Shown: in pieces, positions 2,499 through 13,926 of the stretch | How positions within the stretch are numbered: position 1 is the stretch's first letter | Layout of the letters: every line of letters begins with the position of its first letter | Source of the DNA: a virus | Strand: one strand, 5' to 3' | Virus record (IMG/VR): IMGVR_UViG_3300017720_000082 | Coordinates: 1 to 21,446 of that record | Length of the DNA: 21,446 nt | Program-made: the position numbers and the translations under genes | Notes under the pieces: model-generated | Databases searched by the model: none | What the model saw: only the letters and a program-made list of their open reading frames with translations | Told to the model about the DNA's origin: nothing

Positions 2499-3332
2499 CT
2501 ACTCTGCACACTTCTGGATTCTTACACCATCACCATCAATTAGGACTGCTCCCATTGACATATATGAAGTTGTAAGGTGTGCTACTTTCTCAGGGATATA
2601 GTTAACTTCAGTTCTTACGTCTGAACCTACACCCATACCTAGAGATGATTTATGGAAAGCCATAGTGTGTCTATCTGTTGAACCAGATGTTGGTAGACCA
2701 CTAAAACCCATCCACATGAAAGACAACCATCTTTTAGCTGTCATTCCACCTTTGTAAGGTAGATCTGCTTCACCGATATATTCAGCTCTTGAGAACTGAT
2801 CTATATCTAATAGGTCAGACCACTGTTTTGGACCGACTACCCAGTATCTTTGTCCATCATCTGGAACATCATTGTTTCCAAAGATTTCAAAAACATTCTG
2901 AGCTTTGTCTAAGTTCATACCAGTAGTTGTACCAGCAGAGTTATTTGCTAGTGCAGTTGCACCTGAATTGTAAGTATCTGTGATGATTTCATCAGTCTTA
3001 CGACCTAAAGCATATGCAGCATTTTGTGCTACAATGTTTCTCTCATCAATATTTACTTTCAATTCGTCTAGTTTGTCTACGTAATCAGCAGCATAAAAGT
3101 CTGATAGTGTTGCAGTTACATTTGAGTGTACTGAGTTCATAGCGACAACCTCAGCGTGTCTTGCTTTAGTTGAAGCAGAACCTTTCGCTACTTTTTGGAA
3201 CTGAACAGTATTTCCTTTTACACCATTGACATTACGTACCATGGACTTCAATTTTGAGCCCATACGTTGATAAGCCATGTGAACTTCAGCTTCAAACTGT
3301 TTCACAAATGCTTGATCTATTGTTGCTGTCAT
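2499..3332 (-). CDS. Major capsid protein
   Basis: This 277-aa protein lies just downstream of the scaffold region and has the pattern of podoviral capsid proteins. It begins MTATIDQAFVKQFEAEV, a helical N-arm, and then has KGNTVQFQKVAKG, a stretch around DKLDELKVNIDERN with AYALGRKTDEII, and a C-terminal beta-rich part. Such proteins share the HK97 fold and form the icosahedral shell around the gp9-like scaffold. The 106-base leader upstream (3333-3438) contains an AAAGG ribosome site and a small hairpin (ACTGG/CCAGT, 3395-3399 with 3407-3411) about 63-79 bases before the ATG. I see no convincing sigma70 promoter in the leader. It is the widest gap in the virion operon, which fits separate control of a highly expressed capsid gene. 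Confidence 0.88.
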   Translation of the reverse strand: MTATIDQAFVKQFEAEVHMAYQRMGSKLKSMVRNVNGVKGNTVQFQKVAKGSASTKARHAEVVAMNSVHSNVTATLSDFYAADYVDKLDELKVNIDERNIVAQNAAYALGRKTDEIITDTYNSGATALANNSAGTTTGMNLDKAQNVFEIFGNNDVPDDGQRYWVVGPKQWSDLLDIDQFSRAEYIGEADLPYKGGMTAKRWLSFMWMGFSGLPTSGSTDRHTMAFHKSSLGMGVGSDVRTEVNYIPEKVAHLTTSYMSMGAVLIDGDGVRIQKCAE

Positions 3333-7636: not shown

Positions 7637-9132
7637 TTCTTCCTCCTATTCATTGAAGTACGATCAAATATATTCCAGTTCTTATAAGCATTAGATACTT
7701 GTGGTTTAGCTGGACCTACTGTTAATGATCTACCTTCTCCTGCACCTAGCATTAAATATTGTAATGCATCATGTACGTGTGAAAATTTATTCTTATTAGG
7801 TTTATCTTCATATCTTTCTCCAGATGTTTGTATTCTTCTGTAATGATATCCACCTAAGAATCCTTTACGTAGTGATTTACAAGTTTTATTTAATAAAAAT
7901 CCTGCCTTACCATCTACCATTCTATTCAATGCAGTTTCAACAGATTCTATTCTTAGACCTACATCATTAGATGGTGCAGGAAATGCCTGGATGCCTTGTT
8001 GTCTAAGTATCTGAAAAGGAGTTGTTTCATCTGTTTGTGCTCTAAAATCTCCAGCTGGATCTCCAAATATTTTTAAATCTTTATCTGCACAGTGTTTAAT
8101 TATCTCATGCTTTAATAATTCACCAAACTTAACTGTACCAATATCAAAACAAACTAGTTCATGCAGTATCAACCATCTACCATCAGGTAGCTTTTGACCA
8201 AATACAGCAGAAGGTGTAAGACCAAAGTCTAATCCAATATAAACTGTAGTAGGTGCAAATTCTATTTCATCATCTGCTATGTGTACATCTTCTCTAAATG
8301 AACCATATACTAGTTTACCATCTTCAATAGTTCCTAATTTATTTAAAACGTAAACATCAATCCAAGATTTACTTTTTCCTCTAATGATATTTGGATAGTA
8401 ATTAGGTGTAACATTTTGGATATTTTCTGCTGTATTATTAAGCTCATAACTTTTAATTTTATCATCTTCTTTTTTTTCTATCATGCCTGGAGGTTGTACA
8501 AAAAACTTCCAGTTGTCAGGCTTGACTAACATTAAGGATTCTTCTTGATTCATATGATCTGGTACAGGTACTTCACCAGACATAATGGACCACCAATGAT
8601 CTTCATCAGGTGCATTAGTATCTGCTATAACACCATACCATGAAGGTCCACCATCTTTCATAGAAGGGAATCTACCTACACGCATAGTACACGCATCAAC
8701 AATAGACTTAGGAATCTCTCTTGCTTCATTAATCCATACACCAGTTAATTCTAAAGACAATAATTTTTTAACATCTTCTGGTCTATCTAGTGCTAAGAAT
8801 ATAACTTCTAGCTCTACATCACCTATATGAATGTTATGTGTAAAAGGAACTGAGTACATAAAGTTTCCAAAAGAATTTTCTGGAAACCAATCTAACCACG
8901 TTTTAATAGTTGTTGTTTTTAATTGGGGATTTGTATTTCTTATTACTGCCCATCTAGATTTACGTTTACCATCTTCACTAGGCTTTTGTTTTAAGGCACG
9001 TCTGAATATTTCAATACAACAAGATACAGACTTCCCTGATCCTACTGGACCACGTACACCTCTAAAGAAGGAATCATCCTTCATAAAGGTTTTTATTGTT
9101 TCACCTGGAGCTTTGTAGTTGAGTTCTGTCAA
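7609..9132 (-). CDS. Terminase large subunit (packaging ATPase and nuclease)
   Basis: All core elements are visible in this 507-aa protein. The Walker A motif GPVGSGKS is at residues 28-35, and a Walker B-like strand with catalytic Glu, GVWINEARE, is at 131-139. The RNase H-like nuclease has acidic residues at D302 (IGLDFG), D358 (FGDPAGD) and D455 (HVHDALQYL). It docks on the portal, pumps DNA into the procapsid and cuts the concatemer. The final bases overlap the 135-aa gene, and the start overlaps the 63-aa gene by 4 bases (ATGA). The protein is intact with no missing catalytic residue. Unusually, about 2.1 kb of small genes separates it from the small subunit. Confidence 0.96.
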   Translation of the reverse strand: MTELNYKAPGETIKTFMKDDSFFRGVRGPVGSGKSVSCCIEIFRRALKQKPSEDGKRKSRWAVIRNTNPQLKTTTIKTWLDWFPENSFGNFMYSVPFTHNIHIGDVELEVIFLALDRPEDVKKLLSLELTGVWINEAREIPKSIVDACTMRVGRFPSMKDGGPSWYGVIADTNAPDEDHWWSIMSGEVPVPDHMNQEESLMLVKPDNWKFFVQPPGMIEKKEDDKIKSYELNNTAENIQNVTPNYYPNIIRGKSKSWIDVYVLNKLGTIEDGKLVYGSFREDVHIADDEIEFAPTTVYIGLDFGLTPSAVFGQKLPDGRWLILHELVCFDIGTVKFGELLKHEIIKHCADKDLKIFGDPAGDFRAQTDETTPFQILRQQGIQAFPAPSNDVGLRIESVETALNRMVDGKAGFLLNKTCKSLRKGFLGGYHYRRIQTSGERYEDKPNKNKFSHVHDALQYLMLGAGEGRSLTVGPAKPQVSNAYKNWNIFDRTSMNRRKKWDIFRRNG

Positions 9133-9320
9133 GCAATACCATTATCTACAGATTTTTTAATTAACTTGTAGATAGTTTCTGGTAGTAGAGATTCTATAAA
9201 TTTATCGGCTTCATTATCCGAAAATCGTAAGTCTTTGGGATAATGTTTAAAATGTTCTTTCTTCACTATCTTACGAAGTCTTTGACGATCCTCGTAAGAT
9301 AGCTCCTCTGCATACCTCAT
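9129..9320 (-). CDS. Small helical protein upstream of terminase (63 aa)
   Basis: A charged, helical 63-aa protein: MRYAEELSYEDRQRLRKIVK, then HFKHYPKDL, then NEADKFIESLLPETIYKLIK. I recall similar short proteins (LRKIVKK.H....P..L...EADK.I..I.PET..K.I) just upstream of terminase in marine podoviruses, with no known role. Its stop overlaps the terminase ATG by 4 bases, indicating tight coupling, so a role in packaging is plausible but unproven. Codon use is like its neighbours. Confidence 0.75.
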   Translation of the reverse strand: MRYAEELSYEDRQRLRKIVKKEHFKHYPKDLRFSDNEADKFIESLLPETIYKLIKKSVDNGIA

Positions 9321-9322
9321 AT

Positions 9323-9433
9323 TTAATTAAATATTAATCCTAAGATTACTAAAGTAGGAATAGCACATACAAATATTTTACCTTTGTAATTAAGTCCATC
9401 CCATTTTCTTTTCATTTTTATTATTAAATCCAT
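9323..9433 (-). CDS. 36-aa single-pass membrane protein
   Basis: A short frame begins with ATG at 9431-9433, which overlaps the upstream stop (TAATG), with an AAGGG site just before it. The product is MDLIIKMKRKWDGLNYKGK followed by a hydrophobic segment (residues 20-35: IFVCAIPTLVILGLIF) and a terminal Asn. The positive-inside rule would put the basic N-terminus in the cytoplasm, with the C-terminal helix spanning the membrane. It ends two bases before the next ATG. Such tail-anchored peptides may be lysis accessories or host-membrane effectors. I cannot assign a function. Confidence 0.7.
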   Translation of the reverse strand: MDLIIKMKRKWDGLNYKGKIFVCAIPTLVILGLIFN

Positions 9434-9603
9434 TATGCCCTTGCTTTCTTTTTAGCTGTTGCTGATAGATCTTTAAAGTGAACTATAGGTTTACTTGATG
9501 CAGTATGTGTTTTGCCTGTATGTAGTTTACCATTAGGCATTTTATGATATGCACCTTTATGCTCAGTTCCATTTTTAAAGTAATGTTTTTGATTGGCACC
9601 CAT
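9433..9603 (-). CDS. Small His/Lys-rich protein (56 aa)
   Basis: The frame is 57 codons, starting at the TAATG overlap with the upstream 36-aa gene and ending in a TAATG overlap with the next. The product MGANQKHYFKNGTEHKG continues with KMPNGKLHTGKTH and ends with an Ala/Lys helix. It contains 11 Lys and 6 His in 56 residues and only two acidic residues. The KNGTEHKG/MPNGKLHTG layout recurs, in my memory, in small proteins of marine podoviruses without a function. A nucleic-acid or virion-DNA contact is plausible from the charge; nothing more can be said. Confidence 0.72.
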   Translation of the reverse strand: MGANQKHYFKNGTEHKGAYHKMPNGKLHTGKTHTASSKPIVHFKDLSATAKKKARA

Positions 9604-11017: not shown

Positions 11018-11245
11018 TCAACGCTGTTTGTAATGTTCATAGCATAGGAAGTAATAACTACCTATCTCGTTCTTGATATGAAACGGAGCGAACTCCCCAC
11101 ACTCACAACAACGACAATACTTAATGTGTTCTTTATGTGTCCAGTTTAGTATTTGTAACTGATTGTAACTCGGACCTTTTTCGCTAATAATGTGAGTAGA
11201 GGACCTTTCTCTATGCTGTCGCTCCTGTTTTCTAACCCCCCTCAT
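11018..11245 (-). CDS. Small zinc-binding-like protein (75 aa)
   Basis: The C-terminal half carries a dense Cys cluster, KYCRCCECGEF (C44, C46, C47, C49), then LCYEHY (C68, H71). This is the layout of a treble-clef or HNH-like zinc knuckle of the CxxC...CxxH type. The N-terminus is Arg/Glu/His-rich and probably unstructured. It begins directly after the terminase small subunit stop (TAG then ATG). It may bind DNA during packaging or be a degenerate HNH nuclease; HNH proteins beside terminase are frequent in phages, but the HNH catalytic His-Asn-His is not clear here. Base composition is richer in G+C than the genes further left. Confidence 0.68.
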   Translation of the reverse strand: MRGVRKQERQHRERSSTHIISEKGPSYNQLQILNWTHKEHIKYCRCCECGEFAPFHIKNEIGSYYFLCYEHYKQR

Positions 11246-11629
11246 CTAATCTAGGTCTATCTTGATCGAGAGGTTTCCTCCTACACTGTGCTGTACCTTA
11301 TCAGGAGCTTTGAACCCACTCCTATCTAGTATGTCCTTACTGGCTTCTAGCTTCACGTAATCGGACTTCGCTTCCTGCGCAAGTCTAACGATTGTCTTGA
11401 CTGCTGGGATTGCACCTACCAGTCCTATCTCAGCTACACGTGAGCGGTAGTACTCTTGTACCTTTGGAAGTCGTAGCGTCTTACTAGCAGTTACTCTACC
11501 AGATTCTCCCTTTGCATATCCAGCTATTTGACTAGCTTTTGCTACGGAGCAACCTTCTGCTACGAGGGTATCAATCAACTTGCGTTGCTTATGTGTAAGT
11601 CCGTCAGTTCCTTTTATTTGACTGCCCAT
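11246..11629 (-). CDS. Terminase small subunit
   Basis: This 127-aa protein has the classic layout. GLTHKQRKLIDTLVAEG begins a helical DNA-binding domain. The helix-turn-helix is at about residues 28-45 (SVAKASQIAGYAKGESGRVT), and LRLPKVQEYYRSRV follows. A Lys/Ala-rich oligomerisation helix (KLEASKDILDRSGF) leads into a short acidic tail. It recognises phage DNA and loads the large subunit. It is the first gene of the leftward unit. Candidate sigma70 elements lie immediately upstream, and an AAGG site sits 11 bases before the ATG. G+C is clearly higher than in the other virion genes (29/60 at 11341-11400, against 19/60 at 5161-5220), so it may have a separate origin. Confidence 0.9.
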   Translation of the reverse strand: MGSQIKGTDGLTHKQRKLIDTLVAEGCSVAKASQIAGYAKGESGRVTASKTLRLPKVQEYYRSRVAEIGLVGAIPAVKTIVRLAQEAKSDYVKLEASKDILDRSGFKAPDKVQHSVGGNLSIKIDLD

Positions 11630-11651
11630 AACGATAGATACCTTGCTACGG

Positions 11652-11679
11652 TTTATGTTGTCAAGTAAAAAATTGTAAA
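11652..11679 (-). promoter_or_regulatory. Candidate sigma70 promoter for the leftward virion operon
   Basis: On the minus strand TTTACA (11674-11679) is followed after 16 bases by CATAAA (11652-11657), 23 bases before the terminase small subunit ATG. An overlapping alternative uses a perfect TTGACA (11659-11664) with a TATCTA-like -10 after 18 bases, which would start transcription practically at the ATG. Either would drive the leftward genes. An 8-bp hairpin (11683-11705) lies just upstream. Confidence 0.4.
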
Positions 11680-11739
11680 CAAACGAGAGATGTTCCCTCT
11701 CTCGTGCTCTCTCCCCCTAGAACGTAGACTGTTTAATGG

Positions 11740-11846
11740 ATCAAACGATTGACCTATGTCTTTTCTATTACCTCAGTCAGCTATAGCGATAGCCTCCTTC
11801 GTGTCCTCTATATCTCATATAGCCACAGGCAACCCAATCGTTTGAT
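11740..11846. repeat. 12-bp perfect inverted repeat, arms 83 bp apart
   Basis: ATCAAACGATTG at 11740-11751 is exactly complementary to CAATCGTTTGAT at 11835-11846. Two smaller hairpins lie between the arms (GCTAT/ATAGC and CTATAT/ATATAG). As RNA this folds into a closed three-way element; as DNA it could be a paired operator or an origin element. Confidence 0.7.
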
Positions 11847-12098
11847 TTACTCTCTCTCGATAATGCTCCATTCGTGGCGACAGCATTGAGGGGGTATCAG
11901 CGTGGTACACGCCACGAACTACCAGAAGATTCTTTCACCAGTCAACCCATAAAGGGTACTGTGCAACAAGTTAGCTTGACGTTTATTTCACTTCGTGAAC
12001 GGACAAACAACTGGTCGCACTGACTGTCTTAGAATCTTTGGTTGCTAAAGTGGGCATTAACGAGAGATCGACTCTCATCATATCAAAGGAGATATACA

Positions 12099-13559: not shown

Positions 13560-13744
13560 TGAAGCTATTAGAAGTATCAAAGTGTGAAGCTATACTAAAA
13601 GATCTCATTAAATGTCAAGAAGAAGCTGGAGTCATTATGACTGACGCTAAGTATATACATGAGGCATCTATGGATTTAGATAGAAGAATCAAAGACATAG
13701 GAGATCGAGTAAATAAATTAATACAAGAGAACTTGGAGGAGTGA
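13559..13744 (+). CDS. Small helical protein (61 aa)
   Basis: A charged helical peptide starting at the TAATG overlap: MKLLEVSKCEAILKDLIKCQ, then a heptad-like region with ASMDLDRRIKDIGDRVNKLI. It probably forms a coiled coil. There is no known family. Its stop shares a base with the next gene's ATG (TGATG). Confidence 0.65.
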   Translation: MKLLEVSKCEAILKDLIKCQEEAGVIMTDAKYIHEASMDLDRRIKDIGDRVNKLIQENLEE

Positions 13745-13926
13745 TGGAAATAGAAATAGAAATATCAAAGGATACAATGAAAGCTAGAGTAGAGTGTATG
13801 AGATGTAATGGACTTGGTGTTATACCTTGGGGTGATGCACCAGATGAATCAGATCCCTGTGATGAATGTGAAGGACATGGTGAATGGCTAGAGGTAGTAA
13901 AAAAGAAAGAGGATAGTAATGAATAG
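13744..13926 (+). CDS. DnaJ-type zinc-finger mini-protein (60 aa)
   Basis: The ATG at 13744 is preferred over the GTG at 13741 because GGAGG at 13735-13739 is too close to the latter. The protein has a short acidic N-terminal strand, then two CxxCxGxG motifs: CMRCNGLG (C18, C21) and CDECEGHG (C39, C42). This is half of the cysteine-rich domain of DnaJ and should bind one zinc. There is no J domain, so it is not a full co-chaperone. Phages encode such single modules as small zinc proteins; a role as chaperone mimic or protein-protein adaptor is inferred. The C-terminus is Lys/Glu-rich. Confidence 0.8.
   Translation: MEIEIEISKDTMKARVECMRCNGLGVIPWGDAPDESDPCDECEGHGEWLEVVKKKEDSNE

Follow-up and report, generated by a model that had tools for sequence, protein, structure and literature searches.

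The DNA analysed here, referred to as the window, is a virus record of 21,446 bases and represents a fragment of a podovirus-like phage. The phage is marine, and its hosts are likely SAR11-type bacteria; the terminase large subunit protein encoded in the window shares 67% identity with that of the cultured Pelagibacter phage EXVC031P Hodr (host strain HTCC1062). The terminase small subunit gene, terS, belongs to the leftward late genes, and the rightward genes are early ones (RecE-like exonuclease, SSB, DUF932). Between the terS start codon and the first rightward ORF lies a gap, 11630-12098, whose limits and position between the two gene arms had been given correctly in a preliminary description of this DNA. 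In Hodr both arms diverge from a single junction adjoining terS, and the gap corresponds to that junction. The counterparts of the first rightward gene differ among relatives (L008, L019, L022, L024), with a GYDKA-like motif common to several of the small versions. No tRNA gene was found in the window, a TerS search of cellular genomes gave no match, and searching phage records at the DNA level, using the gap as query, gave none either. The features of the locus are listed in Table 1.

Table 1 Predicted features of the gap and its flanking genes (window positions).
Feature	Position	Strand	Remark
Putative structured non-coding RNA, whole element	11683..12079	-	limits taken from the fold; 15 IMG/VR contigs have homologues
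P1 closing helix, 5' strand UCUCUCGUUAAUGC	12054..12067	-	pairs with 11853-11866
P1 closing helix, 3' strand GCAUUAUCGAGAGA	11853..11866	-	invariant in class A
Arm A, long and branched	11921..12042	-	sequence swapped between relatives, pairing kept
Arm B, UUCGUGGCG/CGCCACGAA hairpin, conserved GCUGAU in loop	11870..11921	-	pairing variants in relatives
Purine linker CGAGAGAGAGUAA	11847..11859	-	mostly unpaired in models
Domain 2, 12-bp helix AUCAAACGAUUG/CAAUCGUUUGAU	11740..11846	-	kept via compensatory changes
3' hairpin ACGAGAGAGGGAACAUCUCUCGU then UUUGUUUAC	11683..11705	-	from terminator scan; terminator-like in window
Candidate pseudoknot, CCCCCU in arm B loop	11889..11894	-	partner 11713-11718
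Candidate pseudoknot partner AGGGGG, in G-rich linker	11713..11718	-	counterpart in L029
terS, terminase small subunit gene	11246..11629	-	PHROG 2538, E=3e-12; 55% identity to Hodr TerS
First rightward gene, 119 aa	12099..12458	+	without family match; exchanged among relatives keeping the RNA
Likely terS promoter region	11650..11679	-	TTTACA at 11674-11679; TTGACA at 11659-11664

The preliminary description had singled out the gap for its G+C content (31/60 at the peak, in a genome near 32%) and for its many hairpins. Both traits are real, with corrected values of 35/60 near 11864 and 34.4% for the record, against 43.2% for the gap. The G+C elevation is not peculiar to the gap, however: terS is equally G+C-rich, and the 470-base stretch with the highest G+C (46%), which begins at 11182, consists mostly of terS. 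The whole gap folded better than dinucleotide-shuffled sequences, with z scores of -3.2 on the plus strand and -3.0 on the minus strand (0/100 and 1/100 shuffles, respectively, folding as well), and trimming it to 420 bases led to z scores of -4.1 and -4.9. Coding controls of 420 bases from the same record showed a mean z of -1.4 with one of them reaching -4.6, so that fold energy by itself is suggestive and conservation has to decide. In a local scan of z scores over 240 bases, only the right half of the gap stood out, since the fold is long-range. Low minus-strand z scores (-4.3 to -5.4) were also seen at 9121-9480 and 2641-3000, one of which covers an intergenic stretch among small ORFs next to the gene for the terminase large subunit and the other lies inside the major head protein gene.

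Relatives were gathered via TerS, giving 68 viral loci (designated here by L numbers), and the gap is homologous in the nearest of them. By motif scans, the RNA type of the window, class A, was present in 15 contigs, where it adjoined terS in all those checked, and the same terS leader in 32. The gaps of the distant Methylophilales phage MEP301 are unstructured. In a consensus fold of six near full-length sequences, 97% of the pair cells are intact. Two-sided compensatory change with pairing kept was found at 18 of the 105 pairs, compared to 9.6 ± 1.8 in shuffles, in a covariation set of six to nine related sequences, which are few and whose kinship alone can beat shuffles without structure. 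None of 500 shuffles reached 18 such pairs, and slid structures gave at most 6. This was the covariance check called for in the preliminary description; the compensatory changes, together with the minus-strand asymmetry described below and the same position in relatives, indicate that the stretch of about 390 bases is, as judged from sequence comparison, very likely a previously undescribed non-coding RNA with a conserved fold. A search of Rfam 15 gave no match at gathering thresholds in the window or in 19 relatives, and none at E<=5 in the gap.

The strand was assigned from the same comparisons. The consensus fold energy is -137.0 on the minus strand and -124.6 on the plus strand, and columns changing from Watson-Crick to G-U versus A-C pairs stand at 10:3 on the minus strand and 5:6 on the plus strand. 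The minus strand was preferred in 22 of 24 blocks (plus in L010 and L043), these blocks not being all independent and class A being over-represented among them. In the window and in Hodr by themselves the minus preference is slight, so the strand claim rests on the relatives, from which we consider it quite probable that the RNA is read leftward. The contigs L018 and L073, which come from one metagenome, end within the RNA block and overlap there; these ends are an assembly break and not a genome end.

From its 5' side, the predicted RNA comprises a P1-closed domain with arms A and B, a purine linker GAGAGAGAG, domain 2, a G-rich linker and a 3' hairpin. The 3' strand of P1 is replaced by UCUCUCGUUG/CAACGAGAGA in L022 and L025. 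Helices 3-5, in arm A, hold most of the two-sided changes; arm B and the 3' hairpin, like domain 2, keep their pairing through sequence change. The arm B stem, for example, exhibits the variants UUCGUGG/CCACGAA, UUCGUUG/CAACGAA and UUCGCC/GGCGAA across relatives, and the domain 2 helix occurs as AUCAAACGAUUG, AUCUAACCAUUG or AUCUAAACAUUG, each with its complement, and as an 11-bp helix AAAUAAAAUUG/CAAUUUUAUUU in the very divergent L029. Inside domain 2 are a junction, GGGUUGCCU...AGGUCAA, and two hairpins. On inspection, the blocks of L010, L015, L024, L025 and L036 also showed a GAGAGAGA-type stretch behind the first domain.

The C run in the arm B loop might form a pseudoknot with the G-rich linker. 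In L029 the corresponding positions read CUCUUAACG/CGUUAAGGG. L032, L019 and L073 have an interrupted C run; the G run is absent from L032 and L019, and the sequence of L073 ends before its position. L028 keeps the C run although the G run is absent. Each case taken singly was matched by 2-10% of shuffles, so the pseudoknot remains a candidate.

On the terS side, TTGACA or TTGACC is present in nearly all relatives scanned, with TTGACA-17-TATACT in Hodr. TTTACA(AT) followed by CTTGACA occurs in all near relatives regardless of the RNA type, and this pair could be two overlapping promoters or an operator. Sigma-70 scans for a promoter of the RNA or of the early rightward genes gave no consistent or convincing site. 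A TATA-like stretch at the 5' side of the RNA was rejected as a promoter, as it resembles the usual ribosome-site spacer of these phages, and so was a conserved intrinsic terminator: the U run behind the 3' hairpin, present in the window, is not kept in relatives.

In about half of the relatives with this terS leader, other structured RNAs occupy the gap, with different sequences and strong folds (z -3 to -11). L010 and L017 have a different 600-nt block upstream of terS, with z between about -9 and -11 on either strand (that of L010, L010:4364-4964, is 601 nt long with z about -9), and their TerS proteins are nearly the same. Exchange also affects parts of blocks, the first 200 nt of L024 being common to L020 and its last 88 to L025, and L015 having only the 3' end part in common with class A. 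Different RNA types adjoin TerS proteins of 90% identity, and one RNA type is kept beside different first rightward genes. This independence of both neighbours argues against a packaging site recognised by TerS and against a gene-specific leader, and favours a stand-alone, trans-acting phage RNA. The replacement of whole modules at a fixed site, with independent change of the neighbours, suggests either that many different folds can serve the role or that it is under diversifying pressure.

We therefore favour, as a probable though by no means assured explanation, that the gap encodes a stand-alone non-coding RNA with several domains, which is about 390 nt long and, like terS, read leftward. 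Its conserved structure suggests that the RNA would be transcribed during infection, presumably apart from the terS mRNA, terS having its own TTGACA promoter downstream. The folded RNA may act in trans, and the simplest way would be to bind a host or phage factor, a role proposed by likeness to what is supposed for other large phage RNAs. A more far-reaching account, possible but advanced here tentatively, is that in this marine phage group the site is a fixed cassette for large folded RNAs, unrelated or recombined, whose 5' and 3' modules can be exchanged and which act in trans; such RNAs may, for example, be decoys against RNA- or nucleotide-sensing host defence, or serve RNA-only assembly. 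Module exchange of this kind at one site would, if true, be an unusual mode of RNA evolution.

We consider it unlikely that the RNA instead heads a long leftward late transcript and acts in cis, e.g. in antitermination like HK022 put or EAR. Its place directly upstream of terS in the same sense would suit such a role, the late genes of Hodr form a single long leftward run where an antiterminator would help, and a small ORF at 13741-13926 weakly resembles Q-like antitermination proteins (E about 0.01). Elements such as put and EAR lie inside the transcript that they protect; the RNA of the window has the sense of terS, with a terS promoter downstream of it. Against a cis role, this TTGACA promoter separates the RNA from terS in nearly all relatives, and its transcripts would not contain the RNA. 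In the window a terminator-like hairpin also precedes the terS promoter, and put is much shorter than the 390-600 nt of these blocks.

A function of the structure as DNA, with single-stranded hairpins recognised at an origin or packaging site, appears quite unlikely. The gap is, by analogy with Hodr, the sole divergent junction of the genome, and it adjoins terS as many cos or pac sites do. The GC-skew check proposed in the preliminary description did place the minimum of the window in the gap, at 11948, but this coincides with the coding-strand switch, which is a sufficient explanation, and the whole-genome skew of Hodr showed no origin signal at the gap. Very different blocks beside 90% identical TerS also speak against a TerS-specific site, and the tolerance of G-U pairs on one strand suits RNA better, although G-T pairs are partly tolerated in DNA.

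Very unlikely, in our view, is a regulatory 5' leader of the rightward early mRNA. A leader RNA with attenuation was one of three options in the preliminary description, beside an abundant non-coding RNA and an origin. The rightward operon must begin in or near the gap, and sequence inspection showed a weak hairpin around the ribosome site of its first gene. The strand tests, however, favour the strand opposite to the rightward genes, and the RNA stays while the first of these genes is exchanged. A transcription attenuator moreover has conserved, mutually exclusive pairings, whereas the competing pairing described for the gap (CGTGG/CCACG; GCGTG/CACGC inside arm B) is confined to the window, being absent in 8/8 relatives with this RNA type. 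That the hairpins are functionless products of composition and chance, as the one coding control with a similar z might suggest, is hardly credible given the conservation and the excess of compensatory pairs.

The favoured trans-acting RNA was compared with known systems. Like the pRNA of phi29, it is a phage RNA, tied in phi29 to DNA packaging; it differs by the lack of an Rfam match, and the phage has a TerS/TerL terminase whose TerS does not track the RNA type. The staphylococcal cabRNA, which activates a CBASS cyclase, comes from within the terS-terL coding sequence, whereas the RNA of the window lies in non-coding DNA upstream of the terS start codon. The cabRNA shares with it a phage origin in the terminase region, a structured form and a length of about 400 nt, and its sequence also varies between phages (PMC10686824). 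In ICP1 and PLE, very abundant non-coding transcripts arise from ORF-free gaps, that of PLE between two gene clusters (PMC7567579), a setting like that of the gap; their expression is known, whereas the RNA described here is known from sequence. A pelagiphage transcriptome paper makes no mention of non-coding RNA. GOLLD and ROOL are elaborate folded phage RNAs of unknown function, often near tRNA genes, and in GOLLD the 3' part is conserved whereas the 5' part varies (PMC12286853). The RNA of the window resembles them in being a large folded phage RNA; it differs in having no Rfam match, in being shorter (~390 nt) and in keeping to the junction beside terS, away from tRNA genes. The putative RNA falls into none of the families compared and would form a new one within the loosely defined group of large phage RNAs, set apart by its cassette-like exchange.

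Large orphan phage RNAs pose a known puzzle for which tractable hosts are scarce, and the present one is compact, stays at a fixed site and has many interchangeable forms. The cultured phage Hodr has a structured block at the corresponding position, which makes expression and need testable. In the Hodr record (L070, OQ414635.1), the locus tags read EXVC032PBaldr, the name of another phage, which is probably a deposition slip.
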